Below, piece by piece: positions 6,088 through 64,000 of a DNA stretch of 64,000 nt. Position numbers and translations under genes: made by a program. The first letter of the stretch is position 1. Each line of letters starts with the position of its first letter. This stretch comes from Apoderus coryli (lineage: Eukaryota > Arthropoda > Insecta > Coleoptera > Attelabidae), in assembly GCA_911728435.2 (NCBI GenBank), contig OU452203.1:20480293-20544292 (forward strand), in the 5' to 3' direction. Below the pieces are notes generated by a model. That model saw only the letters and a program-made list of their open reading frames with translations, was not told where the DNA came from and did no database searches.

Positions 6088-7560
6088 ATAAATAAATAAA
6101 GCGTTTATTGCCCAACAGTTTCCCATTTAAAGGACAATATTACAAACTAAAAAATTAAATGCTTAAATAAACTAAAATACTAATTTATAAATCCTAATTA
6201 CTTCCGCACACATACACACACCTAAACCACAAATCTCTCTGCAGCTACCATTTTCAAGTGATTGACTGTAGTTGTTTGTCACACCTATCAGAAACTCTAT
6301 TAAAATTAGAACACATGACATGAACAGGCGATCTTAACAGTACATTGGTCCTAGCTCTGTGTAAGTGAAATGTTACATTCGATCTGGTATTTAACCTAGG
6401 AACTAACAAATTCAAGCAAGATAGCAGAAAAGAGCAGTCGATTTTTTCTCTAAGTAATTTATATAAGATGGTTAATGAGCTCTGAATTCTTCGGTACTCC
6501 AGACTCTGAACGTCAAAACGTGATAGTAACAATTCATGATCGAAACCTCTTACTGGATAAGCACCATCGGTTCTAAAAACTAAATATTTCAAAAATCTAC
6601 GTTGAATTTGCTCGACCTCTAGCTTATGAATATTATACTGAGGAAACCAGATGATGGAAGAATACTCCAATTTTGACCTCACATAGGCATTGAACAAGGT
6701 GATAAGGGCAGAGGTATTATTGAAGCCTTTGCAGTTACGCATTATAAAGCCATACATGCGAGATGCCTCACCAACCATTTTTTACATATGCTCCAAAAAC
6801 TGGAACCTCTGATCGAAGCTAACACCAAGATCCGTGAATACCCGACATCGTTCAAGTTTCTTTGTGGAGATTGCATACGGATAGTCAATAAACGTTGTTT
6901 GACGTGTAAAACTCAGACATGTGCATTTACGAATGTTACGAGACAATTTGTTACTGTCGCACCACCTTTCTAGAGCACACAAATCATGCTGCAGGTTTAT
7001 GCAATCTGCTACTGAATCTATGGAGGCGAAGATTTTCAAGTCATCTGCGAAAAATAGAGTACGCTGAAGTAAACACGCGTCCAGGTCATTGATGAAAAGA
7101 AGGAACAACAATGGACCTAAGTTAGAACCCTGGGGTACTCCTGACGTGGCCGAGTAAAAACAAGATTTAAAGCCGTTGTAAAAGACATATTGTTTCCGAT
7201 CATTCAAGTATGAGTTGCATAAAGATATCAAGCCCGAAGGAAATCCATCATACGTATGCAGTTTACACAGCAATATGCCATGGTCTAGCCTATCGAAGGC
7301 TTTGGTGAAATCAGTATAGATTACATCCAGTTCACCGTTGTGATCAAGAGTTTCAGAGATACAGTGGGTAATAACTGACAGATTGGTGACAGTGGAACGG
7401 CCACACATAAAACCATGCTGGTTAGGTGAAATCTGACGTCTCACAGCTGTATAGATCCGATCATATAAAATTGACTCAAATAATTTAGAAAAATTGCACA
7501 ATAGAGAAATTGGTCGATAATTATTAACATGAGACTTTTCGCCGGATTTAAAGACGCCGG
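6088..7560 (-). mobile_element. Jockey/CR1-like LINE, 5'-truncated
   Basis: A minus-strand non-LTR retrotransposon runs from about 7560 (5' truncation within the reverse transcriptase) to a TTTA-repeat tail at about 6088-6102. The reverse transcriptase frame is nearly continuous, with one in-frame TAA at 6782-6784. The 3' UTR covers about 6103-6253. A related 3' end (GTTTATTGCCCAACAGTTTCCC-like) is found at 27360-27430, so at least two copies of this family are in the window. Confidence 0.85.
6254..7560 (-). pseudogene. LINE ORF2 reverse transcriptase, broken by one stop codon
   Basis: The frame opens inside finger motif VNNYRPISLLCNFSK. It continues with NQHGFM.GRST, DVIYTDFTKAFDRLDH (motif A), [20 protein letters not shown] (motif B region) and the catalytic box FFADDLK (motif C). 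A thumb-like region follows, KLERCRVFTDLGVSFD. At 6782-6784 a TAA stop interrupts, and the same frame resumes (MVGEASRMYGFIMRN) with the usual C-terminal segment RSKLEYSSIIWFP to a natural stop at 6254. The endonuclease domain is missing because of the 5' truncation. All catalytic Asp residues are present, so decay is recent, but the copy cannot move by itself. Confidence 0.85.
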
Positions 7561-9254
7561 AACTGTGTCTAAAGTCATGTTTTGGACGTGTCCGAAACAG
7601 ATTGGAAAAAATATTTTGACCGTTGGTTCAGGACAAATGAGTATAGCGTTTGAAGATTCGTACTAAATAAAAATCATAACGAAAAAAATCTAGTAAGGTC
7701 ATCTATATGTCATCCTATGGCCGTTTTGTAATAATATGTCAGAATTTTGTAATAATTTCAGAAAAAAAAACTTTTTTCTGCATTTATAATTTGACAACGT
7801 TGCTTACACAAGTAAATCTAAATTTTTCTTCACTTTTCCATGTTTATTTCATATTAATAAACCGTGTCATTGCAGATGAAAGAAAATTATGTGTTGGCTA
7901 ATTTGTTCATATAGTGTATCTAAGTAAATGATTTTGTATTGTTAAAATTAAAAAGTGAAATCGAAAGTAAGTGTTTTTCAAATGTTGTTATTTTCAGTGG
8001 AATTCGTTTTCGTCACTTTAAAGTACTTGTTATTTAACGACATTGCAGGCAGAGGTATGATGAAAATCCAATGTTAAAGATGAGACGTGAACGAACATTG
8101 CAAAATAACTATCGTCAGAGGAACTTTCACTTTAATTAAGTACCTACATATTGTGCACTTTAGACGCGACACTCATAGCCAAATAAACAACTATCTAATA
8201 ATGTATAAAGAAAGGACTTCTTTGCAATTTATGTTTGTAAGTATTGGGTAATGTTTTAATTTAATAACTTGCTTTTTTGCATAAGTATTCACGATTATCA
8301 CAAACTATCTTTTTGCCAGCTTAAGAGAGAAGCTTTCTTTATAATGGAAGGTCTACACGCTCCGACCTTGTATAATCGTTGTGAATTCCAAGTCCTTATA
8401 GCGGGAAATCTGGGAGTTGCTTTACGTATAGAGTTATCCAGCAATTCGTAATGAGGCTCAAAAACAACAATGGCGGTACTTCAAATAGTTTATAAGGGCA
8501 AAGAATAATTTACACAAATATCATCAGCTTTAATATGAATCAATTCGATAAGGCTGTGTCATGAAATAACTTAAATTTTTCTACGAAATTATATTTGTTT
8601 TTACAAACCCTAAGAAAAATATTTCACCACATTGTATAGCAAACCACTATCACCACCAGCAAAATCCAAAATCCATCCGGTTAGTGTTATAAAAAATTTA
8701 TAAACCACTAGTATAAAACCACCAAAGATACTAGGGAAAAGTATAGTAATTTCTAATTTTATGTTGATTTAGCTCTGCATCATGACTTTACCGCTCATGA
8801 AAAATTTAAAAGATACCACAACACCGGGAAAGTACATTATAGGGGGTTTTAGAAGAGAAAGTGTGGCTTACATATTTATTTAACCTTTTTTTTTTTTAGA
8901 CCTGGATAGTTTGACTTTATTAGGTTTTACTGAAACATAAATACGTTCCGGGTGCTCAATTTAATAGGGAAATACATCGATTTTATATTGAAGGGATGAA
9001 TGGAAACATTTTGTTTGTAAGGAGATTCGAATTACCTTTAAAATCTTAAAAGCGGTTTTATATAATTTCATATAAACAGCAAAATATCAATTTTATCGGG
9101 TTCACGGTCTGTAAATTATTGATGTTTATGACAAACACTGATTCAATTACAACCTCTATATTTCCTTGATAATTTCTCGACTTCCTCAGGAGGAAACACT
9201 AAAAATTACAAAATTCTGTTTCAAATACATAGGTAATCATCATTGAAACAATTT
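7561..9254. other. AT-rich stretch without recognised genes
   Basis: Nothing codes convincingly in either strand. Short open frames here have no splice context and coding-unlike composition. Confidence 0.4.
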
Positions 9255-10597
9255 ATAATTTACTGATATTAAGAACAACCCCAAGTGCTGTGATGAGAAT
9301 CGGTTGATCAGTCTGATGAGTCATACCTTAAAAGTACTCTTAAAAATAATCCAAGAGAGAATATATCGAAAATGCGAAGAACAACTGGATGAGACGCAGT
9401 TTGGCTTTAGAGAGGGTTTAGGAACTAGGGAAGCTTTATTTGCCATCACAGTACTGCTACAGAAATGTAGAGAATACAATAAAGATGTGTACGTCTGTTT
9501 CATTGACTTCCAAAAGGCCTTCGATAAAGTCCAACACGACAAACTCATAGAGAACTTAAAGAGCATCAAATTGGACCCAAGTGATATACAATTAATAAAA
9601 AATATCTACTACAATCAAACGGCAGTAGTTCGAGTTGGGGACATCGAGACTGATGAAGTCGAAATTCAAAAAGGAGTTCGTCAAGGCTGCGTTCTATCCC
9701 CACAACTGTTCAATCTATACTCTCAGTCTGTATTTTAAAAAGCACTTTACGAGAGACCTGAGGGGGTAAACATTGGAGGGACATTGGTTAACAACCTAAG
9801 GTTCGCCGATGATACTGCCATAATGACGGAGAGTGCAGAAGATCTTCAAACCCTGTTGGAAAGAGTCAGTCGAGAGTGTGAAGAGGTGGGACTCACTATA
9901 AACACGCAGAAAACTAAAATGATGGTCATAAGCAAAAACCAAAATATTAACCCTATTCTCACAGTAAATGGAAACCGAATAGAGCAGGTCCAAAAATACA
10001 AATATCTCGGCTCTGTCATAAATTCTGAAATGGACCCTGATCAAGAAATTAAGATCAGAATTGAAATGGCTCGAAAGGCATTTATGAAATATTCCACAAT
10101 GCTTACAAACAGAAATCTAAATCTTGGCATCAGATTGAGATTCGTGGAGTGTTATGTGTGGTCAGTGTTAATGTACGGAGTGGAAACTTGGACGCTAAAG
10201 ACTCAAATGATTAAAAAGCTCGAAGCATTTGAGATGTGGCTCTATAGGCGCATTCTGAAGATACCTTGGACTGATAGGATAACCAACGACGAAGTGTTGA
10301 GACGCATCGGCCGAAAACGAAACCTGCTCACAATCATTAAGATAAGAAAAACATCGTACATAGGACACATATTACGCAATGACAAATATCTACAGTTACA
10401 AAATATTATGCAGGGCAGAATTGAGGGGAAGAAGGGTATCGGCAGAAAGAGAAAATCCTGGCTCCGAAACATTAGAGAGTGGACAAATCTCAGCGTTGGA
10501 GAACTGTTCCATGTTGCAAAAGACAGAGAAGAATTTAGAAAAGTGGTCGCCAACCTTCTGTGAGAAGACGGCATGAAAAGAAGAAGAAGAAGACATT
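9255..10597 (+). mobile_element. RTE-clade LINE, 5'-truncated
   Basis: A plus-strand element begins within the reverse transcriptase (IKNNPKCCDENRLISLMSHT) and runs to a stop at 10561-10563. A very short 3' UTR follows, ending in an AAG-repeat tail (about 10576-10593). A short 3' UTR plus a trinucleotide-type tail is typical of RTE/BovB-like LINEs. Only one stop codon breaks the remaining frame. Confidence 0.85.
9268..10563 (+). pseudogene. RTE reverse transcriptase, one nonsense codon
   Basis: Reverse transcriptase motifs appear in order: LISLMSHTLKVLLK, TQFGFREGLGTREALF, VYVCFIDFQKAFDKVQHD (motif A), KGVRQGCVLSPQLFNLY (motif B) and NLRFADDTAIM (motif C). Next come QKTKMMVISK and YKYLGSVIN, and the RTE-type C-terminus YGVETWTLKT...LEAFEMWLYRRILKIPWT. 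The only break is TAA at 9736-9738, where relatives have a sense codon; the frame continues unchanged. The N-terminal endonuclease is absent because of the 5' truncation. It could still be transcribed, but it is not autonomous. Confidence 0.85.
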
Positions 10598-17039: not shown

Positions 17040-17560
17040 TCGTTTAGGCGGTTTGGCCTCCCCTCACTTCGACCTGCAGAAGATCTTTTGTGAATGACTC
17101 TAATCTATGAATTATTGCCCAGCTGTCCCACACTTTTCATAAAGTTGATGATTTCTCTGGGGGCTAAATTCCTTGCCTCGTTAGGGCCACCCCTCCAAGG
17201 TGTTTTAGCCTTTTGCAGAAAAGTGCCATGCATTCACAGAGCACGTGTTCTGTTGTCTCTGTTGCGTTTTCGCAAAACCGACAAGTGTCGTCCTCGGTTA
17301 GGCCCATCTTTTTGAGATGGTACTTCACTGGGTGGTGTCCCGTAAAAAGGCCTGTAATTCGCCTTAGGTCGCTTTTTTCCACTTGGATAAGCTTCCCTGC
17401 GTTGGCCTCTGAAGGTTTGATAAACCTTTTTGATTGTCCTAGGCCTGGAGTGTTTCTCCCGTAAAACTTAAGTTGTTCCTTGTCCCATCTCCATCTTCCC
17501 CTGAGCTGCCAGTTGCTTTAGGGTCTGTTTGCATTCCCATGCTAGCTTTGACGTGAAATC
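17040..17560 (-). mobile_element. LINE relic: RNase H-like C-terminal part
   Basis: A minus-strand frame includes LTGHxPVKYHLKKMGL-type sequence (LFTGHHPVKYHLKKMGLTED), DTCRFCENATETTEHVLCEC and RLKHLGGVAL. This is the hallmark RNase H/zinc-like tail of Jockey- or R1-like LINE ORF2 proteins. No reverse transcriptase domain is present. Confidence 0.75.
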
Positions 17561-27300: not shown

Positions 27301-30300
27301 TTTGAAATGAATAATAAGTTTAAAATGTATGTTTTTTATTTAATTTTGTCTAATTTATAACAATAATAACAGCATTTATTAGCCAACGGTTTCCCCATAA
27401 CAGAGCAATATAATAATTAGAAAATCATTAAACGAAAAAATAATAATAATTATAACTAATTCGAGAAAAACAATGAATATAAACAAAAATTTAAAAGAAA
27501 ATTTATATGAAATGGGCTTGTTTAACAAAACAAGACTTAAAATCCGAGAGTTTGTCTGTCAACCACTATACTTTCACCAGACAGCCGTTTCGCCGATCCA
27601 CGACTCATCAGTGGTGATCGGTCTGTAGTTGACAGCCAAACTCTCGTAAATAATGTGGTATATACCCCACACGGTACAGAGATGTAAAAGGATGTGTTTG
27701 GCGACATCTAGTTTTATCGTTGGTAGTACGCCGAGTGAACAACAGTTCCTATATCGGCTGTCTGGGAGGTCTCTGACCCCATAAAGCAACTACCAACACA
27801 TAGACGCGCCGATACTCCCTTAAGCGGGATCGCATATATTTGAAATGGGCTTGTTTAACAAAACAAGACTTAAAATCCGAGAGTTTGTCTGTCAACCACT
27901 ATACTTTCATCAGACAGCCGTTTCGGCGATCCACGACTCATCAGTGGTGATCGGTCAGTAGTTGACAGCCAAACTCTCGTAAATAATGTGGTATATACCC
28001 CACACGGTACAGAGATGTAAAAGGATGTTTTTTTTTTTTTAGAAAATTTATAACCTAAAATGAACTTACACCAGAAATGTGTCGAAACACAATAAACGAC
28101 TGTCTCCTTGTGTAAGAAACTCATTCGCATTTCAATATAATCAAATGCAAGTTATTAATGTTACACCAGTTTTGAATGCTTGTCAGATCTTCCTGCAACT
28201 GTTCACAATCTCTCTGCGTTTCCCAATAAAATAAATTTTAACGTCATCAACGAAAAACAACCCAACCCAGTTCAGGTACTCATCAAGATCATTAATAAAT
28301 AATAAGAAAAGGAGCGGGCCCAAATTAAACCCTTGTGGAGCCCAAAGTTGCCACAAAAGATGATGATTTAAAAGCACCATATTATGAAACCCAGAGGTAT
28401 GCGCGCAGTAATAGAATATTGTACAACGAACATGAAATTACATATATTTCCTACGAGTATGATCGATCGCAAATCATACGAGTAGGAAATGGTCATTTCA
28501 TGTGAGTTTCACACTATACTTTTTCTACGACGGTTTTTAATGCTTTTGAATAAATTTAACATAATTTTTAGGAACATATTTGTTTTTCGAAACTTACCCT
28601 TGTTAGCGTATAAGCCTAAATACGATAAATTAGAAGTATTAAATTGACTAGGTGGTGTTAAACTATATTCACTATCACTGTTTATGTGTTTTGAAATTAG
28701 CGAAATACTTAATTATAATTATTATTAATTATAAATACCAAAACTGTCAATTTGGTGTTTGTATTTTGGGCGTTGCTATGGTGATTTTTCATGCCCGCCG
28801 CTACTTTTGTCATTACCGGGAAATTTTATAATAATAATAATATTTGCCTAGCAACTAGTGGGAAATATTATTACGCACGGATAAAATTTCCTGGTAATGA
28901 CAAAAGGTAAATGATAAACAGCATTACAATGTACTACATTTTCAAATCATGATTGAACATATAATAAAGGCATTTAAAGACAGTCGTAGAAAAACAAATT
29001 TATGGTTGACAAGTAACTACGATGTACCTATTTGGCATATCTGTCAATTTTTGAATGTACAAAATTCAAAATATTGAAGAAATGGTATATTTTTGTTAAA
29101 AAGGATATTTTTTTCTCTATCAAACGGCATAGTCGAATATATACCATTCGATTTAAAAATATTTACTTTTTTTAGTAATCACGTGGTTCAAGATCAAATT
29201 CGATTAAATCTCACAAAAAATGTGTAGAGAAAGCTGTTAGTTTTAGATAATAGGAAATGCTTAACAAAATGACGTTTAAATTTTACAGGAAATCTGAAAA
29301 TAAAAATAAAAAATGTGGTAATGCCATTTAAAATGACGAAGTAGATATTTAATAATAATATAAAAATAATAATAAATGACTTTATTGGCATAAAAAACAT
29401 ACATACAAAAATGGAGAACAAATAAACTAAGAAAAATCAGATGCCAAAAAGCACAAACTCAGCAAAGCTCATTTAACATTATAATACATTATAATTATGC
29501 CAATAAATAATTGAATCGAAAATACTAAACATAATAATAGATAGATGAAACACGTGGTTACAATTTCCAACATGAGTAACACATCTCAAACATCAGACTC
29601 CATTAATATCATCTGCTCATGAAATAATTTACCATATAAACAGTGAGAATGTTTTCATCTCCGGAGACATCTCATTATATAATTTAGCTATATTGTAAGT
29701 CAAAAACCTCTGATTTAGGCAGTTCTGTGCTGAGGAATGGTATAACCGGAAGTAATATAAACCGGTAAATAGTACATACATATAGAACTTTCCCGATAAT
29801 ACCGAACCCCTAAGTTTCGAGTTACATGTTAATAAAATTAAATTAAAACATTAATACATTGATGTAAAAGGATGTGTTTGGCGACATCTAGTTTTCGTTG
29901 GTAGTACGCCGAGTGAACAACAGTTCCTATATCGGCTGCCTGGGAGGTCTCTGACCCCATAAAGCATAAAGCGCGTCTATGTGTTGGTAGTTGCTTTATG
30001 GGGCCAGAGACCTCCCAGGCAGCCGATATAGGAACTGTTGTTCACTCGGCGTACTACCAACGAAAACTAGATGTCGCCAAACACATCCTTTTACATCTCT
30101 GTACCGTGTGGGGTATATACCACATTATTTACGAGAGTTTGGCTATCAACTACTGACCGATCACCACTGATGAGTCGTGCATCGACGAAACGGCCGTCTG
30201 GTGAAAGTATAGTGGTTGACAGACAAACTCTTGCATTTTAAGTCTTGTTTTGTTAAACAAGCCCATTTCAAATTAATAAATTGTTTGAATCCTAATTCTT

Positions 30301-33300: not shown

Positions 33301-36300
33301 GATTTCATAAATCAAAACAAATTGCTGATTGTTTGATTTTTCTTTTTGATACCATAAACAATTTTTCTTTTATTTGTTATAAGGACCTGAAACTGAGCTT
33401 TTTTAATGTCGTAAATTATTTTATTTTTTTTTCTGACGTAATCCATAACGACGGTGAGCGGGTTGTATTAATATAATAATATTTTTAAAATCCATCTTTT
33501 ACTTTTATAGATTTTGATAATAAAACAGTGTTTGTTAAAGAAATCCATCATTGTCAAGGAACAAATATATATTCGCACAGATATGTAGCATAAAATAGAC
33601 TACCGTATATTTAAATATTTATTATATAAATTTCTCCAGTTGGCTGCCTGTACTTTACTCTTGAGAATATTTTCGTGCGGTTTTCATTTCCATGGTCTTC
33701 TTTCGTCACGTAAAAAATTAAATTACCTCTCAGAAGAAAAATGTCCTGCATGTGCTTACTATAAGACATAATAATAATACTACAATTGCATGTTCTAATT
33801 TTTGTAGCTCTCCATGATTTTTTTATTTGACTGTAAATACTAGCCTTTTCGGTCATTTTTTACGTAAATAAATACTTTTAAACAAATGTTTGTCTGTCTA
33901 TGATAGCGGAGAAGAGCCATACCAAATATGGCAGAATTCTGTAAAAAAATCTTGACATTTTTGCAATTTTGACATTTTTCACAAAATTATTTTGTTGAAT
34001 TCTGTAAAAAACAACTCGGAATTTTCTATCATTCTGATTTGTTTTAGAGAATTCTATTTTGATAGATGATAGAAGTTTTTGAACTTGGCATTTTTCAATT
34101 CTTACTTTTATGATTATGATAAAACACAACTTTTTGTTCAACCCTGTATATTATAGACTGTGTCTCAAAGTTATAAAAAAAAGAACTTTTTGTTCAATTC
34201 CGATTGGAATTCATTGAAAATTTACATCAATCGATTTTGGCGGTGAGGGTATATGGTGCAGACAGACGTCGAATTCGGCCTGTGGCCAATATAATTAGAC
34301 ATATCGCGATATTTGTCCATACTAGATAGACCTGATGACGAAATTTGGCATCAGACTAACTTAATTTGGGCATAGCTACTGATTTTAAGATCCAACCGTG
34401 TTTGAATTCAGTGATCATGTTCTTTCGCTATAAATGTATGTTCTGATTCAGTACTTAAACGCCAATCGCAAACCGGATCCGTAATCTCCTTGCCTCTCCG
34501 CAAGGAAGGGTTTCGAAACAAAAGTAAGTTTCTAGAAAAATGAGATTATTTCGATGTATGTATTTTATTTAGGTAGCCATAAAACGTCACGAAACATTCC
34601 AATCGTAATAATCTGACATTTAGTTCATTTGTAAAAAATGTCCGAATTCAAAAATTTTGAGTTTTTTGACAGAAATCGGTAAAAAAAATCAGAATGCTTA
34701 AAAATTCCGAGTTTTTTACAGAAGTCGTCAAAAAAGCCAGAATAGTAATAATTCTTTAAAAAAAGTCAGAATTATAAAAAATTACGAGTTTTTTACAGAA
34801 GTCGTCAAAAAAGCCAGAATAGTAATAATTCTTTAAAAAAAGTCAGAATGATAAAAAATTCCGAGCTTTTTACAAAATTCTGCAAAAAAAGTTAGTATAA
34901 TAATAAATTCTGAGTTTTTTACAGAATTCTGTAAAAAAGAGTCAGATGATAAAAAATTCCGAGTTTTTTAACAGAATTCTGCAAAAAAAAAATAAAATTA
35001 TGAAAAATTGCCACTTTTTATACAATTCTGCAAACAAAGTTAGAATAATAAAAAGTTTTTTTACAGAATTCTGCAAAAAAAAGTCAGAATTGGAAAATTT
35101 CAAGATTTTTAACAGAATTCTGCAAAAAAAGTTAGAATAATAAAAAATTCCGAGTTTTTTTTTTCAATTCTAACTTTGTTTGCAGAATTAATTAGTATTA
35201 GTTAATTAGTATTAATTCTGCAAACAAATTCCGAGTTTTTTTTTACACAAATTCTGCAAAAAAAAGTCAGAATTGGAAAATTTCAAGTTTTTTTACAGAA
35301 TTCTGCAAAAAAAACTCAGAATTATGAAAAATTGTAACTTTTTACTAATTAATTTTGCAAAAAAAGTTAGAATAATAAAAAATTTCGAGTTTTTTACAGA
35401 ATTCTGCAAAAAAAAACTCAGAATTGGAAAATTTCAAGATTTTTAACAGAATTCTGCAAAAAAAGTTAGAATAATGAAAAATTCCGAGTTTTTTTACAGA
35501 TATTTGCAAAAAAAACTCAGAATTATGAAAAATTGTCACTTTTTACTAATTAATTCTGCAAACAAAGTTACAATAATAAAAAATTCCGAGTTTTTTTTAC
35601 AGAAATTCTGCAAAAAAAAGTCAGAATTGGAAAATTTCAAGTTTTTTTTACAGAATTCTGCAAAAAAAAGTCAGAATTGAAAAATTTCAAGATTTTTAAC
35701 AGAATTCTGCAAAAAAGTCAGAATCCTAAAAAAAATATGTTGTACGACCTTCTGCGCTTTCGAGTCTACTAACCAATATACAATAAAATAGTTCCTAAAG
35801 GCTGCTTATTGTGAAATTTATGACGCGGGCCTGATCCCGAGCCCTGTGTGACTGATATTATGGTTGAGTACGTATTTATAATAAAGAGTTTTATCGAGTT
35901 AGACGTATTTTATTTCCTATCCAAACCATTTGATATTTTTTAATTACTCCAACACTAAATCGTTATATTGGAAAACTTATAAAGTAAATATCCACTTCCG
36001 TATCTTCAATAACAGTACAACGTTGGTATTATATTAAGTTACATCACTCTTTTTCCGAGACATGCGAAAGTGAAATCTTGTTGTTTTTTTTTGTTTAAAA
36101 CCACTTAGATAACAATATAGTTACTCATAAAACAAAACTTTCACATCGACGGCGACGTGCTCTTTATGTAGTTTTCTATAATATGACATCCAAACGGAAG
36201 TAAAAACCAGATTCATCATAATATAAATATACAAATTGTCCATGAACAAACCTGAAAGAATGAAAGATCATACAGAAGAGAAGATAAAACTCAGATATTC

Positions 36301-38292
36301 GTCGTTTGGAATTCATTCGTACGATATTAGGCGTTATTCTTCTACAAATTCAGATAAGCAGGGCTGATGACACTTGATTTTGTTATAAAAGAAAGGACAC
36401 CCTGTACAAAATTATCAATCTTTATGAAACATATAAAGTTCTACAGGTTATGGGTCCAGGAGAAGTATAGCCGACTAGACTTAGGAAGCATTTTCGGAAG
36501 TTCATTTTTTAAGTTTTTGTTTGTGGACATCCTGTATATTAAAAAGTTCAGTATTCCTTCGAAAACATCCATAAATTATCTTACCACGCAGTTCATTTTA
36601 AATTCAATTTCGCACACACGTCCAGGTTAAAGATATTTCTTGGTTGTTGTGTTTTGTTACAAGTTACCCATCAAAATGTTGTTTTACCGTTTTGTGCGGT
36701 ATGCTATAAAATTATATGTTTATGACTACTATTTTAATACACCTACCGGTATATTTTGCTACATATTTAAATAGTTGCTGTATTTCCTATAGACTATCTC
36801 CAAAATCATATTTTTAAAGTATACTAAAGTTGTACTTCTTAAACAAACTTTGCCTTTATTTCTTCATAAGAACAAAAAGCACACGTACATACCCATTCAG
36901 TTGCTGTACCCAAACGCAGTATTAGATTATTAACATTCCAACTTGACTTTTACGTTATTTATAATGCGAAACTCCTAATTACGTGAAGAAAGTTTTTTTA
37001 GGCACAACTCCTGAAGTTTCAACTCACACTTTCGGGAAATGTAAACTTTTAGCATGTACGATTAACTCTGGTTTGAGTTTGGGGGATGATGGTAAGCATA
37101 GAGAGAAAAGTTTACAACTTTAGCATTTCTAAAGTTTCTCTGTTTGTTTTAATGACGTTTTATAGAGACACTGTATTGTAGCACTCATCATAATTGTTAG
37201 TGTTAGATATAGCTTGGCAAGCTCGAATTGTGAAAATAAGGACTTGAATTTACTTCTACTTATGTTTTCTTTTTCTTTTCCAGCCTTGACCGAGATCAAC
37301 CATTCACCTTCCAACTGGGTGTGGGACAAGTGATCAAAGGCTGGGATCAAGGACTAACTGATATGTGCGTAGGCGAAAAACGTAAACTCACAATTCCCTC
37401 AAGTTTGGGTTACGGTGATCGTGGTGCTGGAAATGTCATCCCAGGTGGTGCTACATTGATGTTTGAAGTTGAACTGATTAACATCAGTGATTCCGCACCA
37501 ACTACTAATGTGTTCAAAGAAATCGATGGGAACAGTGACAAGCAATTGAGTCGTGAAGAAGTAAGCGAATTTGTAAATGTCACTTGTCATTTGTTTTGTT
37601 GTGTTATGCTTAGTTTTGTTGTGATTTTTTGTTTTTTGTTAGATTATTTTTGTGGTGATTTTGGTTATTGTTTTGTAGTGCTTTTATTGTTATCCTTGTA
37701 TAATAGTATTGGCTAATAAACTAATAATTGACCAGGGTAGTAACTCAATACAATATTCTTTAGCTCAGTTAGATTTAGATAGATCTATATTTTGTTTCAA
37801 TTTGATTTAACTCCGTGTATCTCGAAAAGGAAGGCCTGTTCTTTCTGAAACAGCATGTATGTTTCTATTGATTTTACATTAAACAAGTATTAAGAATTCA
37901 TTCATAAAATTTGAATAAGGGTAACATTTTAGGGGTGTCATTTGGTTTAATTTTCCTCAATTATTAAAGTATGCTGTGAAAGTTCAGTATATGTTATATT
38001 TATCATAAATGAAATCCGATCAAAATGATCTTTGCAAAAAAACTCGAATCTCAACAAACACATAACTCGCACATATCAAAATATCTACAAACCGTTTTTA
38101 TTTTTTCAGGTAAGCGAATATCTTAAAAAACAAATGGTAGCAGCCGAAGGAGAAACTCCTAGCGAAGAAGTGAAAAACATGCTCGCAGACCATGACAAAC
38201 TCGTCGAAGAAATCTTCCAACATGAAGATAAAGACAGAAATGGATTCATTTCGCATGACGAGTTTTCCGGTCCAAAACACGATGAACTTTAG
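18114..38292 (+). CDS. FKBP14: FKBP14-type ER peptidyl-prolyl isomerase with two EF hands
   Basis: Three exons (18114-18310, 37284-37560, 38110-38292) join in phase to 657 nt, encoding 218 residues; human FKBP14 is of similar length. The N-terminus ([19 protein letters not shown]) is a signal peptide. The FKBP domain follows, with [42 protein letters not shown], holding the aromatic and acidic residues that line the proline-binding pocket. Two canonical EF-hand loops follow: [12 protein letters not shown] and [12 protein letters not shown], with Asp/Asn at 1, 3, 5 and Glu at 12. The C-terminus is HDEL, an ER retrieval signal. The family catalyses cis-trans proline isomerisation in the ER lumen and helps fold extracellular matrix proteins. 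Intron 1 is 19 kb and full of transposons, plus a nested NDP kinase. The gene converges with FHOD. Confidence 0.95.
18311..19222. other. Intron 1 of FKBP14, first part
   Basis: It is AT-rich with no coding exon identified. A missing first exon of the nested NDP kinase might lie here, but no ATG followed by an in-phase donor stands out. Confidence 0.4.
19223..19816 (+). CDS. awd-like: Nucleoside diphosphate kinase nested in FKBP14 intron 1 (start exon not found)
   Basis: Two exons, 19223-19463 and 19583-19816, join at CCAATG|GTTAGT and TTTAG|GTTTGG to give an almost complete group I NDP kinase. Motifs seen are [70 protein letters not shown] and the active site NVIHGSDS, with the phosphorylated His. 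The family transfers gamma-phosphate between nucleotides through this His. Family members usually start a few residues before ERTFI. Here the frame extends upstream without an ATG to an acceptor TTTTGAAG at 19222, so a small first exon must lie upstream, or the copy has lost its start. ATG 19263 would cut the first beta strand. The intron argues against a processed pseudogene. The C-terminus ([12 protein letters not shown]) diverges from typical relatives. Confidence 0.85.
19817..27359. other. FKBP14 intron 1, long AT-rich part without genes
   Basis: About 7.5 kb with no exon, transposase or reverse transcriptase fragment I could identify on either strand. The open frames here are short, AT-rich and lack splice signals. 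Confidence 0.4.
27360..27507 (-). mobile_element. LINE 3' end (left part of a split LINE relic)
   Basis: GCATTTATTAGCCAACGGTT and following bases match the 3' end of the LINE at 6088-7560 (GCGTTTATTGCCCAACAGTT). The relic appears to continue at 28041-28385 after the inserted hammerhead element. Confidence 0.55.
27556..27635 (-). ncRNA. Type I hammerhead ribozyme, copy 1 (intact core)
   Basis: On the minus strand: outer stem I CUGUCAACUAC pairs with GUGGUUGACAG; after an internal loop, inner stem I UCACCA pairs with UGGUGA. Next come the conserved CUGAUGA box, stem II GUCG/CGGC (one G-U pair) with loop UGGAU, the GAA box, a very short stem III within ACGGCUGU, and GUC at the cleavage site. 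Cleavage is predicted between 27580 and 27579. The internal loops in stem I are where type I hammerheads make their tertiary contact. Confidence 0.9.
27889..27968 (-). ncRNA. Type I hammerhead ribozyme, copy 2 (weakened)
   Basis: It has the same architecture as the copy 333 bp to the left. CUGAUGA, GAAAC and GUC are intact. Stem II (GUCG/CGCC) has one mismatch, and inner stem I (UCACCA/UGAUGA) has one. Predicted cleavage is between 27913 and 27912, exactly 333 nt from the other site, so double cleavage would release one unit-length RNA. Confidence 0.8.
28041..28385 (-). mobile_element. LINE reverse transcriptase relic (right part of the split relic)
   Basis: Minus-strand frame: [21 protein letters not shown] and [10 protein letters not shown], the motif B and motif C regions; the catalytic box reads FVDD rather than FADD. 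A shifted continuation holds [20 protein letters not shown]. It is broken by shifts. Confidence 0.65.
28428..28503. repeat. Palindromic foldback
   Basis: The arms CATGAAATTACATATATTTC and GAAATGGTCATTTCATG, with CCTACGAGTATGAT and ATCATACGAGTAGG inside, form an imperfect hairpin around GATCGATCGC. Confidence 0.6.
28514..28998. mobile_element. MITE-like element with nested foldback
   Basis: Terminal inverted sequences TTTTTCTACGAC (about 28518) and GTCGTAGAAAAA (about 28983) and their imperfect extension enclose some 480 bp. Inside, CTTTTGTCATTACCGGGAAA and TTTCCTGGTAATGACAAAAG (28803 to 28908) form a second inverted pair. No coding frame is present, so it is a non-autonomous DNA element or a nested pair. 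Confidence 0.55.
29350..29790 (-). mobile_element. LINE ORF2 C-terminal and 3' end relic
   Basis: The minus strand reads [20 protein letters not shown] and [13 protein letters not shown] before stops, resembling LINE ORF2 C-termini. A 3' end GACTTTATTGGCA (reverse strand, near 29370) precedes an A/T-rich microsatellite. Confidence 0.45.
29861..30271 (+). mobile_element. Hammerhead retroelement copy with inverted 5' arm
   Basis: The right part (29992-30271) is a 5'-truncated unit of the 27.5-kb family in plus orientation, ending CCCATTTCA like the other copy. The left part (29861-29966) is an inverted 106-bp copy of 29992-30097 with one mismatch that I can see. Direct repeats ATTAATACATT (29850-29860) and ATTAATAAATT (30272-30282), 10 of 11 identical, flank the whole as a target-site duplication. 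An inverted, truncated 5' part fits twin priming or Penelope-like insertion. No protein is encoded. Confidence 0.85.
30146..30219 (+). ncRNA. Type I hammerhead ribozyme, copy 3 (complete, palindromic stem III)
   Basis: Outer stem I UCAACUACU pairs with AGUGGUUGA over nine bases (one G-U). Internal loop GACCGA faces AAGUAU. Inner stem I UCACCA pairs with UGGUGA. Then CUGAUGA, stem II GUCG/CGAC with loop UGCAU, GAA, and ACGGCCGU followed by C. Predicted cleavage is between 30198 and 30199. ACGGCCGU is fully self-complementary. One molecule can form only a two-pair stem III, but two molecules can form a strong one, as known for dimeric hammerheads. Every conserved core base is present. Confidence 0.93.
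31425..31989. mobile_element. Foldback retroelement with hammerhead-like cores
   Basis: Two arms of about 195 bp (31421-31619 and 31755-31952) are near-perfect inverted copies, starting TAGTAGGAAATAAAAG. They flank an AT-rich centre with an A run (about 31708-31738). A 38-bp unpaired tail (31953-31989) follows the right arm. The direct repeat AACATATTATTGTTGT at 31409-31424 and 31990-32005 is a 16-bp target-site duplication. No protein is encoded. Variable-length TSD, inverted partial copies and a hammerhead-like core point to a Penelope-like non-autonomous element. Confidence 0.75.
31842..31890 (+). ncRNA. Minimal hammerhead-like motif (candidate)
   Basis: CUGAUGA (31849-31855) is followed by U, stem II GAAGC/GCUUC with loop UAGUGA, then GAAAC and a tiny stem III within ACAUGU. 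Stem I is short (CCA with UGG) and interrupted, so activity is uncertain. The left arm carries the same motif on the minus strand, with GAAAA in place of GAAAC. Confidence 0.5.
32006..33850. other. FKBP14 intron 1, AT-rich, no gene seen
   Basis: No exon or transposon protein is recognised. Short stretches such as GAACACCCTATAT near 32037 and ATACGGGGTGTGG near 32372 resemble ends of small mariner-like or MITE elements. Confidence 0.35.
34640..35725 (+). repeat. Minisatellite, about 48-52-bp period
   Basis: About 20 variants of a unit containing TTCCGAGTTTTTTACAGAA, TTCTGCAAAAAAAGTCAGAA and TAATAAAAAA are joined head to tail. Each unit has the palindrome CAGAATTCTG. Unit lengths differ because of homopolymer changes, and some blocks are duplicated as pairs. 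Diverged units in the opposite orientation appear at about 33930-34030. Confidence 0.85.
35726..37283. other. FKBP14 intron 1, last part
   Basis: It is AT-rich, with end-like sequences GGACACCCTGTACA (36398) and GGACATCCTGTATA (36526) that resemble mariner or MITE termini. The intron ends with a strong polypyrimidine tract TTTTCTTTTTCTTTTCCAG before 37284. Confidence 0.5.
37284..37560 (+). CDS. FKBP14: FKBP14 exon 2 (rest of FKBP domain, first EF hand)
   Basis: It begins after TTTTCCAG with the one base that completes the serine codon, and ends CGTGAAGAA|GTAAGCG in phase 0. It encodes the catalytic core from LDRDQPF to EVELINI and EF hand 1. Confidence 0.95.
38110..38292 (+). CDS. FKBP14: FKBP14 exon 3 (second EF hand, HDEL tail)
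   Basis: It begins after TTTTTTCAG with VSEYLKKQM, contains EF hand 2 and ends GPKHDEL before TAG at 38290-38292. Its first ten bases repeat the first ten bases of the preceding intron. Confidence 0.95.
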   Translation, partial: VSEYLKKQMVAAEGETPSEEVKNMLADHDKLVEEIFQHEDKDRNGFISHDEFSGPKHDEL

Positions 38293-46100: not shown

Positions 46101-49100
46101 ATAACAAGATATAAGAAAATTCATCATTGCTATCGCAAAAAAAAAGTTTTTCAAATACATATTGTATATTCAAGTATACAACCTCTCGCTATCTCTTGTT
46201 GTGGTAATTGCCAGTCTCTGCTTCGTAATCTTTGGTAGAAATCTGCATGATCACGAAGTTACTTAGACATGGCGCTTCAAGTCTGATGATTTATGACCAC
46301 AACACAATAGGAACCAGTGACGGGTAGTACGAGATTTTTTTCACAGAAGCAACTTTTGTTAATGTTAAACGGTTAATGAATGAATAATGATCAGTATTAA
46401 ACTCTACGAACGAGCAGCTTTAAAAAACTTTATTTGTAATTTGCAAAAAGCTCTGTTTCTCGATAATAAAGCAATTTTTGAAAACTACTTGATTATTGAT
46501 TTGGAGCTTGATAATTTTCTCATTCTAATAGCTTTACTAGACGAGTATCTTTAAAAAGCTCTATTGTGGAATGTACAAAAAGCTTAATTTCTAGTTCATC
46601 AGGCTATTTTAAGTGGATCTTGAACATCTTGCTTGCTGTTTGATTAAAAGCTTCTTATTACTAAGCCTAAAATCTTTATCGATGATAGTATTGCCTTGTG
46701 TTTGATGATAAGTCAGACTTAAACTTAAAAAAGTTAAAATCCTTTATAATAGAATAATCTTTGTGCTCTATATTTTAATTAAAAAAAAGCTTCATTTCTC
46801 TATAATAAAACAATAAGAAGAGTTTGTTTGTTGAAATTTTTGAAGTAAACCTAAAAATTCTATACGCTGGAAGTACCTCTAAAATGCTTTTTAATTTACA
46901 ATAAGCTCAATTTCTCGTTAATAAAACATATTCCTGCATATTTTTCTCAGTAATAACCTGAAAGCTCTATAATAGGAATACATCTATAATAAAGCTTTTT
47001 AAAGCTGTTTTTGACAACAAATTCTTTTTTATTTCTGTGAAATAATTTATCCATTTACGTTTGTATTAAAAAAGGCCAGAATAAGAATACCTCTAAAACA
47101 CTTTAGCTCAAATTCTCTATAATAAAGCTCAATCCACATAATCCTCTGAGACTCGTAAATAATCGAATGCGAAAGATGCGTGATTTTTGATAATTCCTAA
47201 TGATTTTGAACATCTGTAAATACCTATGGAATGAGGGACCTCGGAAGCTGTTAAAAAATGAAACGACCGTTAATTATGACTTAAGAGGAATTAAACGAAA
47301 TGAGGAAAGTAGAATAATTTAGTGTAACGAATGTATGTAAAAGAAATCGTTATTTGCATTTAGCAAAATAACTACTCGCCACCACTGGTAACAATAGAAC
47401 ATTGACACAAGAAAACCCATTGTTGTGTACTGTCAATTTTCTAGATACTTTGATGTCGGTAAGGTCGTCAATTTACACTGTTCATAACAATAGTATTTAT
47501 TATAAATATAAGAATATGTGGCTAATAGAAATTTACAACAAATCCGAAAGAACCTAACTTAATTGTCTAAATTGGATTATTACAACCAATAAAGTATTTA
47601 ATTGAATTATTTCTACCCTTCTTAATCCGCAGAATTAAAAACCGCGTCATACTTCTCTTAGTGTCGTAATCGTATTGTAAAATCCAAACACTTACCGATA
47701 ATTGTATGGACCCGTACTGAGAGCTGTGTTCGCAAAACGATTGAATTCTTTTTGCTGAAATAAAGAGAAAATATTCGTCAATACTATTATAGTGTTTATA
47801 AACTTAGTTTAAAATGATATAAAAAAACAGCAGGAAATTGGGACAACCTATAATGTATACGAATTTATAGGGTGTCCAAATGTCCATGCTTTGCTGATAA
47901 AGGAAATGCTAATCATCTTATCAAGCAAGCCCTCAATATTCAAATAATCATTGTGTCAAGAAAAACAACAAATTCAACCATTCAACTGACATGCGGTTTG
48001 CATAATCTATGTCTTGAACAAGAAATCCCTAGCGGGATTTCCCAGTCGTTTTGTGGTAGTCTTATCTATGACAAAAGTCATTGAGGGTTATAATAATAAT
48101 AATAATCGCACCCAACCCAATAACAAGACAAAATCTTACATAACCAAAAACAATTGCCTAGCATTAGCATACAAAAATACCCAACTTAGAACTAACTGAA
48201 AAATAGAAAAATACAAAAAAAGAAATACACGCTTCAAAACGAAAGAAAATTGGGAGGATTACAAGAACAATTAATAAAGAACAATAAATAATTAACACAT
48301 GCACATAATTCATCAAAACATGTCTCTAAACTTTTCTTAAAAGAATCAAGCGATACATTAAAAAAATCAACATTTTCATCAATAACTAATCGGTTGCTGT
48401 ATTTACAAGCCCGAAATAGGGGTGCTTTAGATTCATAATTAGAACGAATCTGTGGCACCCAACATAAACTAGCGCTTCTAGAGTGAACCCTAGGGATACG
48501 AAACCATAGCTGCTGAAGCAACCGAGGACAATCCAACATATTGTTGATCAACTTAATAAGAAAGATCTGAGACGCGAAGATGCGTCTATCGGCTAATGGC
48601 CGAAATCCGAACCTTGTCAGTAACAGGCTTGGATCACACCCACGAGGAGGAAAATATCCATCAATTTTAAATGACAAATATTTTAAAAACTTACGTTGGA
48701 TACTCTCCAATCTCTGTATATGAACACGGTAGATGGGCGACCAAATGATTGTAGCGAATTCCAAAATATACACAACAAAGGCGAAATAGAGACTTTTCAG
48801 GCAGTCCATTTTGTTGAATTCTCTGGTCTGTCTAAAAATAAATCCTAACATTCGCAAAGCATTAGCAGAAACTTGCTCAATGTGGTAGTTGAAAGATAAA
48901 TCACCATCCAAGTATACACCAAGTTCTTTGATTAAAGCGCAGCGTTCCAAATTTGAATGATCGATGGTGTAGTTTCGCAAAAACGGATCTTGACGTCTTG
49001 TAAATATCACCGACTTACATTTGTTCAGATTAAGAGGAAGTCTATTTAGATCACACCATTCTGAGAGCCGACACAGATCTGTTTGAAGCTGGGCGCAATC

Positions 49101-52100
49101 GTTCTCACAAACAACAGTGCGATACAATTTTAAATCATCCGCAAATAACAAATAATTGCTATTGACACTAGAGCCAATATCGTTTACGAATATTGCAAAG
49201 AGAAGAGGAGCCAACGTACTGCCCTGCAGAGTTCCACTTGAGGCTGTGAATGAACTTTAACTGAATCCATTGTATTGTTGCCTTGTTTCCAGATAGGATT
49301 GAAAAAAATATATCAGATTCCTGCCGAAGCCAATGTCGCACATCTTCTGTTGAATCAGGGAATGATCAATCTTATCGAACGCCTTGGAAAAGTCAGTATA
49401 GATTGCGTCGACTTGCAAACCTCGACCAACAGCCGGAATGACATCCTGCAGGAAAGTGGTTAGATTGGTCACCGTAGAACGACCCTTAATGAACCCATGT
49501 TGCTGGTAAACTAGCCTATGTTTTATTTGCCCAAATAAATTATTGTGCAGAGCAATTTGAAAAACCTTTGCGAAATTAGGAAGAATTGAAATAGGCCGAT
49601 AGTTTTCGATTCTGTTAATATCTCCCGATTTATGTATATGACATATACGAGCTTCCAGTAGTCAGGAAACAAGTTGGACTACAGGGATAAATTAAAAATG
49701 TAATACAATGTTTCCACAAATGCATAAGCACAATCTTTAACCACCATCGCGGGTAGGTTATCTATACCTGCAGTCATCTTCGGTTTTAGACTTTTTAGAG
49801 CACTTAGAATATCTTCCATATCCAAGCTCCCCACATCTACCAGATCAGCACGGTTAAAAGTCTCAGTAAACTCCTGGTTTATCGACTCAACATATACACT
49901 ACGAAAATAATTGGCTAATCCGGAAACGATATTTATATATATATATATATTAAATTAACTTTGGATAAACTATACCTATTATTACAAATATAACAGAAGA
50001 AGTGAAAGAATCTTCATGTCACTTACTTATTCTGTATACATAATATATCTATTTGAGACAATTTTCCTAAACGTTCGATGTAGCTAGTTGAATATAATTT
50101 TCTAACAAGTATAAATGCAAATATTATACACTACCATATATGAATGTATAAGATAAACTGACTTCCGTGAGAAATTTTATGAGTTAAAGACAAGTACAGG
50201 GCCTAATATTAATAATATTATATCTTGACACAAATTTTTCTAAACATTTGCCTTCTCGATCTTTAATATTAAAATATTATTAACCGCAAATGGTAGCAAC
50301 AACCTGTTTAGGTATTCAACCAGCAGATTTATTGTTACGAGATTATAATAATAGTATATTGCTACAATAAAATATTAATGTAACCACATATATCTTCTTT
50401 ACAGGGGCTTGTCGGTAAGTAAGGATCTCGTAAAGGTTTTAGCTGCCATACCGCTTTATCGCGTGTAACAGACCACATATTGGATAGTGGTGGGGCTGTC
50501 ATTTTGGTTCTGCTTGATTATAGTAAAGCTCAATCAAGGCATCCTTTTTGCTATGTTTAATTACGTGGCTTCCGTGAAAAATCACATATAAATTGAAATA
50601 TTCCTAATAAACCCATTATTATTATCAAAACTAATTTTTAATTCCAAAAATTGATATAAAAATATTTTTTTACGTACCAATAAAATTAAATTGTATTTGT
50701 TTTTGTATAATTTATAATTTTTTTTTGGTATATTTTAAGTTTTAAGTTGAATTTGTTTTATAATTTCGACAAAATCAAGAAATAAATTTTAATTTTACTT
50801 GAGAAAATGTGTTTTTTGCGAAATTCACTTTGTGTAACTATAATTTGTATAATTTTCTATAGTTGAAGAGTTATATTTTTAAAACTGGTCATAATATTCA
50901 GAGTCAGCATATGTTTTCACAATCGGCAGAATATATACTTTCGTTATTTACAAAATCACCCCCTTAAATATTGTCGAGACTTTTTGAAAAACCCCGTATG
51001 AAATCTGGTAAATAAATGTATTGCTGCTGTTGTTGTTGAATTTGATTTTCTTTATAAAAACATACAGAAGAACAATAGACGTACCAAAACAGTTACATTG
51101 TTATAATCTTTTCGGTGATATAGTTGAGATAGTTATTGTTTGAAAATTCTAAAACAAACTACATTACACGGGTACATTACCTACTGATGTACTGTATACT
51201 AAGCAGTTTCATGAATGCTCCCTGAATAAATCATTACAATATTTCATAACTTACAACAATTTTCATACCACTTGTACATATTATTTAAAAAAATGGTTCA
51301 ATAAAATGATATTGCGATACAAAAACAGAATTTTATTATTGTAATATACAGAGTGTCCCAGAAAATGTGGGAATGCTCTCGGATGCAAATATAACATGAT
51401 TTTTTCCTACGGAAGGTTTTTCTTTAATAACTTTTAAAGTACTTTTTCTACTCCTGTTTTGTTAAGCCGTCTATTGCAAAACTGTTAACGTGACACGTAA
51501 ATTCAATCTTACATAAGTGTTACGTAATGATCACCAAAGTGTTACGTAATGAATATTACATAACACTTTGGGGATTTTTATTTTTTATTATGGAATTATG
51601 CCAAACACAAATGTCAAATATTTAAATGTCATAATTATCTTTTCTTCTGTGTGAAATATTTTTGCCTAAATTTTAATTCTGAAATGGATTCTGATTCTGC
51701 AAAGTCGTAGAAAAAGTACAGTACATAACTCGAGCTGTAAATAATTTTCCATGCTCGAGACTATTGCCTCACTCGCCGCTTCGCGGCTCGTGGGCAAACT
51801 AGTCTCTCGCATGTAAAATATCATTTACAGCACATGTTATGTAATATACTATTGTATAACATGACAACAATTTTATATGAAGGACACAACTAAAATCCTC
51901 TTAAAATAGTGTTCTTGAATTCTGGATAGGTATTCTAGGTATCTGACATCTAGTATAGTAAATACAAAATTCGTTATATTAAAACTAATTTTAACTAAGA
52001 ACATTCCTTAAAATGTTTACCAATTAAACAACAAAATTATAATATAGAAGCAGTACCAGAAAGAGAAAAAGGTTATCTGTGCTTCAATTTATTTCAAGAA

Positions 52101-60480: not shown

Positions 60481-60707
60481 ATCTATTATGAACTAAATTA
60501 TGACGAAATAATCCAAAAATGGCTAATAGTTAATAATTATTTGTCCTACACTTAAAAATCCACCATATAATTAGCTCTCCATATCATATATGTAATATAT
60601 GTATATATGGAGACTATTAGTTTCATGAAAAAAAATTTTTTTTTAATTTCACCGGAAATACTTGTTTTTGGTCATTTTATACATAAATAAGTAGTTTAAA
60701 AAAAAAG

Positions 60708-60733
60708 TCTGTCTGTCTGTCTGTCTGTCTGTA

Positions 60734-60768
<35 letters not shown>

Positions 60769-60999: not shown

Positions 61000-62215
61000 T
61001 AGACCACATTGGCGTTCGAAAATAGTGTAAAATGGGGTAAAAAAGATTAAAAAAAAACGTATTTCTTAAAAATAGCAGAAATATTAACTAGTTATTTATA
61101 GTTTTGATAGAATATAACCTATAAAATGTGTCATGAATAACTTACGTTCATAGGCGTTCGTAAATAGTGGAAAAGGGGTCAAAACATAAAAAATATATAT
61201 TTCCTAAACTTATTCGAAATATGGAATAATTTTTCATAGTTGTGATACAATATAAGCTAAAAAATATTCCATAAAAGAATTGGTTCACACAGGCGTTCGA
61301 AAATAGTTTAAAAAAAGGGTCAAAAACGAAAAAAAAATGTTTCTCAAATATACGAGAAAAATTGGCTAATTATATATAGCTTTGATATAAGATAACCTAA
61401 AAAATGCAGCATAAAATTTTTATTTACATAGGCGTTCGTAAATAGTAGAAAAAGGGGTAAAATAAAAAAAAAATAAAATGTAAAATTTTTTATATTTAAC
61501 TAGATGAATTGGTATTAAAAATACACGACAAAAATTAATGTACCATAGGCGTCCGTGAAAATTCTATAAAAGGGTCAGAAAAAATTTGTATCCGTGATAA
61601 CTCAAAAACCACTTAACGGATTTTAATTACATTTGGTACGAAAATACTACAGGATATTTATAGGTGGTGATTAACATTGAGCGTAGGCAAGGGGTTTAAA
61701 AGAGGGTTAAAAAATTTTAAATATCATAGTTTTTAAACTTATCCGAAATATTGAATAATTTTTTTATAGTTGTGATAGAATATAACCTAAAAAATGTTAC
61801 ATAAAAGAATTAGTTCACACAGGCGTTCGAAAATAGTCTTAAAAAAGGGTCAAAAACGAAAAAAAAATGTTACCCAAATATACCAGAAAAATTGGCTAAT
61901 TATATATAGCTTTCATATAAGATAACCTAAAAAATGCAGCATAAAATTTTTATTTACATAGGCGTTCGTAAATAGTAAAAAAAGGGGTAAAATAAAAAAA
62001 AAATTAAAATGTAAAAAATTTTATATTTAACTAGTTCAATTGGTGTTAAAAATACACGACAAAAATTAATGTTGCCTAGGCGTCCGTGAAAATTCTATAA
62101 AAGGGTCAGAAAAAATTTGTATCCGTGATAACTCAAAAACCACTTAACGGATACCCTACAACATGCAGCATAACAATTTTGTTTACATAGGCGTTCGTAA
62201 ATAGTAGAAAAGGGG
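61000..62215 (+). repeat. 140-bp repeats in a 530-bp higher-order array
   Basis: AGGCGTTCGTAAATAGTA-type cores lie at about 61012, 61153, 61291, 61431, 61548, 61821, 61962, 62078 and 62190. Cores at 61291, 61431 and 61548 recur at 61821, 61962 and 62078, a constant 530-531 shift, so a block of several units was duplicated as a whole. Confidence 0.85.
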
Positions 62216-63244: not shown

Positions 63245-64000
63245 TGGGTCTGCCAGATAACTTTTTTTTTTTTGAAAATGGTATAAAAGAAAAACTGCTG
63301 AATATTTTCTCAAATTTCTTTTTTTATTTGAAAGTACAATCCTTCTGGTTAATAATGACAAATAATTTCATTCAAATGGTTGCCTCGGCTGGCCATGCAG
63401 TAGCCTACACGATCGGTCCAATTTTTAAGCACATTATCGATTGTGTGCAGCTGTATTTCACCAATGGCTTCACGAATGTTGTCCTTTAAAGCGTCAATTG
63501 TCTTTGGCTTGTCGGCGTAACACTTAGCTTTGACGGCACCCCACAAATAATAGTCCAACGGTGTCAAATCACAGCTCCGAGGTGGCCAAACGACATCAGC
63601 TCTGCGGCTGATGATGCGATCTTCAAAAACAGGACGCAAAACATCAAGTGTAGCTTCGGCTGTGTGACACGTAGCGCCGTCCTGTTGAAACCAAATGTTG
63701 CCAATATTCTTCAATTTTTGTGAACAAAAATTCGTTCAACATGGCCCGATAACGATCGCCATTGACTGTAACGGCCACTCCTTGCTCATTTTCGAAGAAA
63801 AATGGCCCAATTATGCCTCCGGACCAAAATCCGCACCAAACAGTGACTCGTTTTGGATGCATCGGCTTTTCAATGTATGCGTGCGGGTTTTCTGTGCCCC
63901 AAATGATGTCTCCGAAATGTTCAATTGTTGAGACCGACGGTGAATTGATGTTGATGGCGCTTCACGCACACTTTCTGCCACAGCAGCAATATTCTCGGGT
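63245..64000 (-). mobile_element. DD41D-type mariner, internally deleted, running off the right edge
   Basis: The minus-strand element has its 3' UTR from about 63245, stop codon at 63349-63351, and transposase sequence to the right edge. It is missing a central part of the gene and carries a frameshift, so it is non-autonomous. Confidence 0.8.
63349..64000 (-). pseudogene. Tc1/mariner transposase with deletion and frameshift
   Basis: From the right edge: an N-terminal helix-turn-helix part (PENIAAVAESVREAPSTSIH, RRSQQLNIS), then an abrupt join to the mid-catalytic domain (GTENPHAYIEKPMHPKRVTV, WCGFWSGGIIGPFFFENEQG). The segment that would carry the first catalytic Asp is missing. A frameshift follows at about 63705 (NEFLFTKIEE / NIGNIWFQQDG). 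The last part has QQDGATCHTA with catalytic Asp 2, and CDLTPLDYYLWG with Asp 3, separated by 41 residues. It ends LKNWTDRVGYCMASRGNHL. The spacing assigns it to the DD41D group rather than classical DD34D mariner. Confidence 0.82.

Follow-up and report, generated by a model that had tools for sequence, protein, structure and literature searches.

At positions 27496-28052 of the window, the whole 64-kb stretch of DNA analysed here, a short tandem element lies between two copies of the 12-mer AGAAAATTTATA (27496-27507 and 28041-28052), which is the longest exact match between the searched flanks and which we read as a target-site duplication (TSD). The element comprises 1.57 head-to-tail units of 333 bp whose hammerhead sense is that of the minus strand. 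A full unit (27508-27840) is followed by a partial one of 188 bp (27841-28028); 185/188 bases are identical at an offset of 333 from 27508 on, against 37-60/188 at the other offsets from 325 to 341. A run of 13 T (28028-28040, plus strand), absent from the preliminary description of this DNA, stands between the last unit and the right TSD. Each unit carries one predicted type I hammerhead on the minus strand that matches Rfam family RF00163: copy 1 at 27617-27574 (27.2 bits, E 0.00023), with cleavage between 27580 and 27579, and the more diverged copy 2 at 27950-27907 (18.3 bits, E 0.2), with cleavage between 27913 and 27912. The 333-bp tandem unit, the 12-bp TSD, the single hammerhead per unit and the 333-nt spacing of the predicted cleavage sites, all put forward in a preliminary description of this DNA, hold on closer analysis, though the second unit is only partial. 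Both hammerheads score below the RF00163 gathering score of 34, and an Rfam scan of the whole window at that level reports none.

The right flank (28053-28420, minus strand) contains, in six-frame reading, a reverse-transcriptase (RT) motif ending FVDD, which bears out the older LINE relic inside which the preliminary description had placed the element; this relic has matches of 77-81% at other places in the genome. A paralogue of the flank (L098, 79% identical) spans the insertion point without an insert and holds the TSD region once, with a 9-nt indel. This empty site supports the reading of the element as a real insertion, and as one younger than the LINE relic, as had been proposed. No stop-to-stop frame of at least 110 aa overlaps 27496-28052, and the RT plus GIY-YIG endonuclease by which a Penelope-like element (PLE) is recognised was not found there. 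Elsewhere in the window we find decayed LINE-type RT frames at 6254-7627, 9259-10563 and 48234-49661 (RVT_1 matches in three scanned frames) and a fragment with a zf-RVT match at 17164-17517 (27.8 bits, cut-off 27.5). The window also holds a tRNA gene on the minus strand (2726-2799, 62.5 bits), a minisatellite-like, AT-rich block whose repeat periods are about 50, 77, 92 and 201 bp (34650-35724), an exon of an insect FK506-binding protein (FKBP) gene (37240-37716) whose named matches come mostly from insects, beetles being among the best, a (GTCT)n microsatellite (60707-60768) and a 138-bp tandem repeat (61007-61462). A frame at 63349-63735, which gave no Pfam match at E 0.001, resembles what we take to be the C-terminal part of a mariner-like transposase.

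A search of the 428-Mb assembly (129 contigs) with the unit, which had been named beforehand as a possible refutation of a mobile, retrozyme-like element, instead supports that proposal, with many copies sharing ends and TSDs. We obtained at least 142 matches, from the best 40 of 1369 first-look candidates scored, and grouped them into 40 loci that include the window copy and represent the best-matching copies rather than a random sample. With the unit numbered in hammerhead sense from the first base past the cleavage point (nt 1), 26 of these loci have the arm order '-+', 7 '-', 5 '+', 2 are complex and none is '+-', so that in two-armed loci the hammerhead-sense 3' ends point outward; a 3' end is found on both sides in 28/40 loci, whose arms are therefore inverted. 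These outer ends are fixed: out of 68, 33 fall at a site A (nt 68-82) and 31 at a site B (nt 225-236), with 4 elsewhere, so 64/68 lie in two windows for which chance predicts 5.5, whereas inner ends fall there in 3/64 cases against 5.2 expected. Site A lies at about nt 72 and site B at about nt 229 after the cleavage point, 157 nt apart, and the left edge of the window copy (27508) is nt 72, that is, site A. The 28 two-ended loci divide into 23 with A and B, one with A twice, none with B twice and four with one end elsewhere, an anatomy that departs from the SINE-like one of a single fixed, tailed 3' end and a ragged 5' end.

TSDs of 11-15 bp accompany 27/40 loci, 21 of them with 12 or 13 bp; a scripted search for TSDs of at least 10 bp had returned 28/40, from which L037 was dropped because its match lies inside the element. 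Among the 12 loci without such a scripted TSD, L043 has duplications differing by one base, seen against the same-flank locus L123/124. The longest arm measures 12.27 units. At 30 junctions between arms, the mean number of shared bases is 2.2, where chance predicts 0.7, filler being scored as 0. A second search with another copy gave 15 new places, with one ladder of short fragments on contig C101 left out and the ends of the other 14 read by eye: 12/14 pair an A end with a B end, and TSDs measure 12-17 bp in 11/14 and 8-9 bp in two, L117 showing neither. Flanks are shared between the two sets by L105 and L107 with L035 and by L123 with L043; leaving out L105, L107 and L123, A and B ends are present in 10/11 loci. 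On C101 (152 kb), several arrays (L035 and L105-L108) have one target flank in common, a sign that the entire locus was duplicated after insertion, and one copy retains both arms where the others have lost one. What these loci add to the preliminary description is that most of the copies read are inverted double arrays, that their outer ends lie at two fixed sites inside the unit, away from the cleavage site, and that their layout matches that of the PLEs in the same genome.

With tandem units bearing predicted type I hammerheads and with TSDs longer than 4 bp, the family is, judged by its sequence, a metazoan non-LTR retrozyme. Compared with the family majority, the full unit of the window has other bases at nt 152, 289, 320 and 330, the last two inside the hammerhead; these four differences mark the window copy as a diverged offshoot, with weaker predicted ribozyme scores. 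The hammerheads of L016, L018 and L030 reach 33.8 bits each, just short of the RF00163 gathering score of 34, and a scan of five loci at this threshold found no hammerhead that passes. Between the 40 locus consensuses, 0/15 positions of the hammerhead core differ, compared with 44/318 other positions, and 7/15 core positions carry private variants; about two differing core positions would be expected, and the difference is not significant as a sign of selection on its own.

Comparison of arms and units bears on the form of the template. Both arms are comparable in 23 loci, and in 15/23 their consensuses are identical over 243-333 nt, where divergence between loci has a median of 1.8% (1929 pairs); six of these 15 belong to a subfamily with 14-15 identical arms elsewhere, which leaves nine loci fully telling. 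The arms of the other 8/23 differ, by 0.3-0.7% in six loci, by 1.3% in L013 and by 3.0% in L028 (over 164 nt), and in 6/23 (L013, L020, L024, L028, L034 and L038) an arm elsewhere is nearer than the partner. Units within one arm diverge by a median of 0.5% (53 arms). Of 162 within-locus variants, 151 are confined to a single unit and 11 occur in several, one being present in both arms; another locus shows the same variant for 15 of the 144 distinct ones. Variants that nearly all sit in single units indicate that most arrays started out with identical units. Copying of a circle predicts this, whereas a linear multimer used as template should pass on the differences that its units already had. 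We take this as evidence from the genome sequence for an RNA circle as the putative template of insertion, while noting that gene conversion within a locus could also make units and arms alike. Folded as a circle, the 333-nt RNA has a predicted energy of -111.5 kcal/mol, against a mean of -84.4 for 100 shuffles (SD 5.4, lowest -102.6), and in this single predicted fold A (helix end at nt 75) and B (nt 226-227) border one junction at the foot of an arm formed by nt 92-226. The two PLE sites likewise flank a short tail, and we take the folding evidence as no more than suggestive.

We examined the PLEs of the same genome through their GIY-YIG domain, scoring the best 150 of 1260 candidates, all above the cut-off; among these 150, neighbours within 8 kb are arranged '-+' in 19/19 pairs, again with 3' ends outward. 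Four loci were read whole, including L074 with open frames for RVT_1 and GIY-YIG, and ten at their ends. Both ends are resolved in 9/14, with TSDs of 12-14 bp, and in 9/9 of these one end is 35 nt longer than the other, a tail thus being present at one end only. L073 has a TSD, but one of its ends lies near the hammerhead-like motif; of the remaining loci, one shows the tail end only and three gave no resolved ends. By eye, a hammerhead-like motif is seen in L071-L074, 50 nt ahead of one of the two ends and 85 nt ahead of the other, where an Rfam scan (E up to 1) reports no hammerhead. A strict hammerhead pattern finds none in L051-L074, and a looser one gives four matches in L051-L070, those in L052, L062 and L063 looking like minimal hammerheads. 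These three represent other PLE families, with the minimal hammerhead (CUGANGA ... GAAAC GUY) downstream of the endonuclease. MicroRNA matches in the loci scanned with Rfam lie inside palindromes where checked and were set aside as artefacts.

At the inner junctions of the PLEs, with the left arm of L074 as reference, the template positions at which the two arms stop are separated by 7, 20, 398 and 7 nt in the four whole loci. The midpoint windows of the remaining 15 endonuclease pairs show a palindrome through the centre in 5 cases and offsets of 225 and 413 nt in 2, and 8/15 have no usable inverted repeat. Many PLE arms, though not all, stop near the same point, as expected from run-off on one linear RNA, unlike the retrozyme arms, which stop at scattered points. 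Long near-perfect palindromes through the centre occur in L071, L074, L127, L132, L133, L136 and L139, and in L071, L074 and the loci of L127, L132 and L133 the outer ends nonetheless differ by the tail. Fold-back alone should not yield palindromic PLEs with unequal ends; they would be expected if both arms were copied up to the 5' end of the same RNA.

The retrozyme has the insertion anatomy of the PLEs, with outward 3' ends, two alternative fixed ends and a TSD, and this anatomy, shared with the larger PLEs of its genome, points to PLEs as borrowed helpers. Target choice is also alike: counted from the nick, bases two and three are TT at 31/54 first-set retrozyme nicks, at 9/22 second-set nicks (11 loci) and at 7/18 PLE nicks, over a background of 13.6%. 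The two differ in that site B lies 228-231 nt past the cleavage point in the retrozyme as against about 85 nt in PLEs, that A and B are 157 nt apart where the two PLE sites are about 35 nt apart, and that the retrozyme arms are many turns of a short unit without recognised coding, whereas PLEs code for an RT and an endonuclease. The link is drawn from shared anatomy within one genome; shared sequence was tested for and not found, the unit giving no significant match to PLE loci L051-L074. A motif common to sites A and B looked suggestive by eye (p 0.14) and was rejected, as was one common to retrozyme sites and PLE ends (p 0.12, 1.0, 0.55 and 0.27 for four pairs).

From these observations we consider it probable that a metazoan non-LTR retrozyme is inserted here by PLE machinery, which would copy one RNA circle from both ends of the cut target. 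As in known retrozymes, a tandem copy would be transcribed in hammerhead sense and cut by its ribozymes into 333-nt monomers, to be ligated into circles. A PLE enzyme would then cut both strands of an AT-rich target, beside TT and about 12-13 bp apart, a distance that the end anatomy displays. The two DNA 3' ends would prime cDNA on the same circle, one at A and the other at B, as the end positions and matching arms suggest; the arms would run round it for up to 12 turns, stop at scattered points and be joined, often via the few shared bases seen at the junctions. Two tandem arrays in inverted orientation, bounded by TSDs, would result. The T run of the window copy would be all that represents its B arm, interpreted as a bottom-strand A run that grew from the TSD by RT slippage on UUUU (nt 224-227) at B and then stopped; a similar run of A is found on the B side of L033, and the slippage reading is based on these two loci. 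More tentatively, and with slightly more doubt than belief, we suggest from the fold model that a two-headed PLE enzyme holds one circle, in which A and B, as neighbours, would each feed one RT.

Other routes to these arrays seem less probable. We think it unlikely that the unit, instead of being a retrozyme, descends from a PLE as a non-autonomous derivative, reduced to an end piece with the hammerhead, that would insert as proposed here: the insertion anatomy is the same, three PLE families (L052, L062 and L063) have minimal hammerheads and a hammerhead-like motif precedes two PLE ends by 50 and 85 nt by eye, and against such descent the unit lacks significant similarity to the loci compared (L051-L074), which are part of the PLE families of the genome. 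It is quite unlikely that a LINE enzyme inserted a linear multimeric transcript in the manner of a SINE, the inversions being ordinary LINE twin priming. Twin priming is known for L1, LINE relics with RVT_1 matches lie in the window and the window copy, taken alone, has a homopolymer adjoining its TSD, but this route would not account for two alternative fixed internal starts, one per side, in place of one tailed 3' end, for arms with as many as 12 units that started out identical, or for the matching layout of the PLEs in this genome.

If the arrays were ordinary satellite DNA that spreads through unequal crossing-over or DNA circles, this would explain why 333-bp units are alike within an array and why some loci share flanks through later duplication, as on C101, yet the TSDs, fixed outer ends, inverted arms and empty site make it extremely improbable. 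We also regard as very improbable that the inverted arms arose by self-priming (fold-back) on an antisense template, as the available text of PMC3846280 infers for inverted Penelope structures of rotifers from palindromes at their inverted junctions. Some PLE copies of this genome are near-perfect palindromes; fold-back, however, predicts the same start at both outer ends, where we observe A against B and tail against no tail, and in 2/26 retrozyme loci the unit positions at which the two arms meet agree to within 20 nt, with 3.2 expected. Copying of one circle by PLE machinery remains our preferred reading, and to explain why PLEs are inverted, twin priming at two sites is offered in place of self-priming.

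The retrozyme class is already known, and the new part is the insertion mode of this family. In the available text of PMC7229834 (2020), PLEs are a strong candidate helper, and PLEs or LINEs are proposed without a test; the end anatomy provides genomic evidence for PLE-type insertion of animal retrozymes, and it narrows the helper question to one circle, two start sites and two strands. If the two-headed reading is true, both strands of one target cut would be extended together, one from each site, over repeated turns of the circle. Retrozymes would then live as parasites of PLEs, and rolling-circle reverse transcription at the chromosome would count among the normal routes of insertion in animals. 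In the open-access literature as available, we found no account of retrozyme arrays in inverted arrangement or of retrozymes with PLE-like ends.

Metazoan non-LTR retrozymes, as presented in the available part of PMC7229834, have one type I hammerhead per 170-400-nt unit, range from dimers to long arrays, are flanked by TSDs of >4 bp and lack an enzyme of their own. The present family resembles them in its 333-bp unit, type I hammerhead, TSDs and absence of recognised coding; the same text has tandem copies, and does not have inverted double arrays, two fixed end sites or a tested helper. Plant LTR retrozymes, in that text, have type III hammerheads in their LTRs, a PBS and PPT and a 4-bp TSD; our family shares with them the supposed intermediate, a hammerhead-processed circular RNA, and is set apart by a hammerhead that matches type I.

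For PLEs the closest comparison is the Anolis element, whose enzyme, as reported in the accessible sections of PMC11167929, cuts and extends both strands in vitro, starts RT at two internal sites and prefers ATT on each strand. Its hammerhead cuts at +26 and its main RT start is at +111 to +118, 85-92 nt apart. Its start site does not differ between the two strands in vitro, whereas the retrozyme uses a different site on each side. Hammerhead mutants insert normally, with unprocessed RNA as the main template (PMC11167929, same sections); a processed circle would thus be unnecessary for the Anolis enzyme, a point against the circle model. The extra 35 nt of the PLEs in this genome match in kind the PLE tail described in the published text at hand (30-40 bp, optional). 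Movement in trans is also on record, a host gene having been moved between pLTRs (available text of PMC3846280). Taken with these sources as far as they are accessible, the family is like GIY-YIG PLEs in its inverted copies, TSDs, two internal sites, upstream hammerhead and AT-rich target (PMC11167929, PMC3846280).
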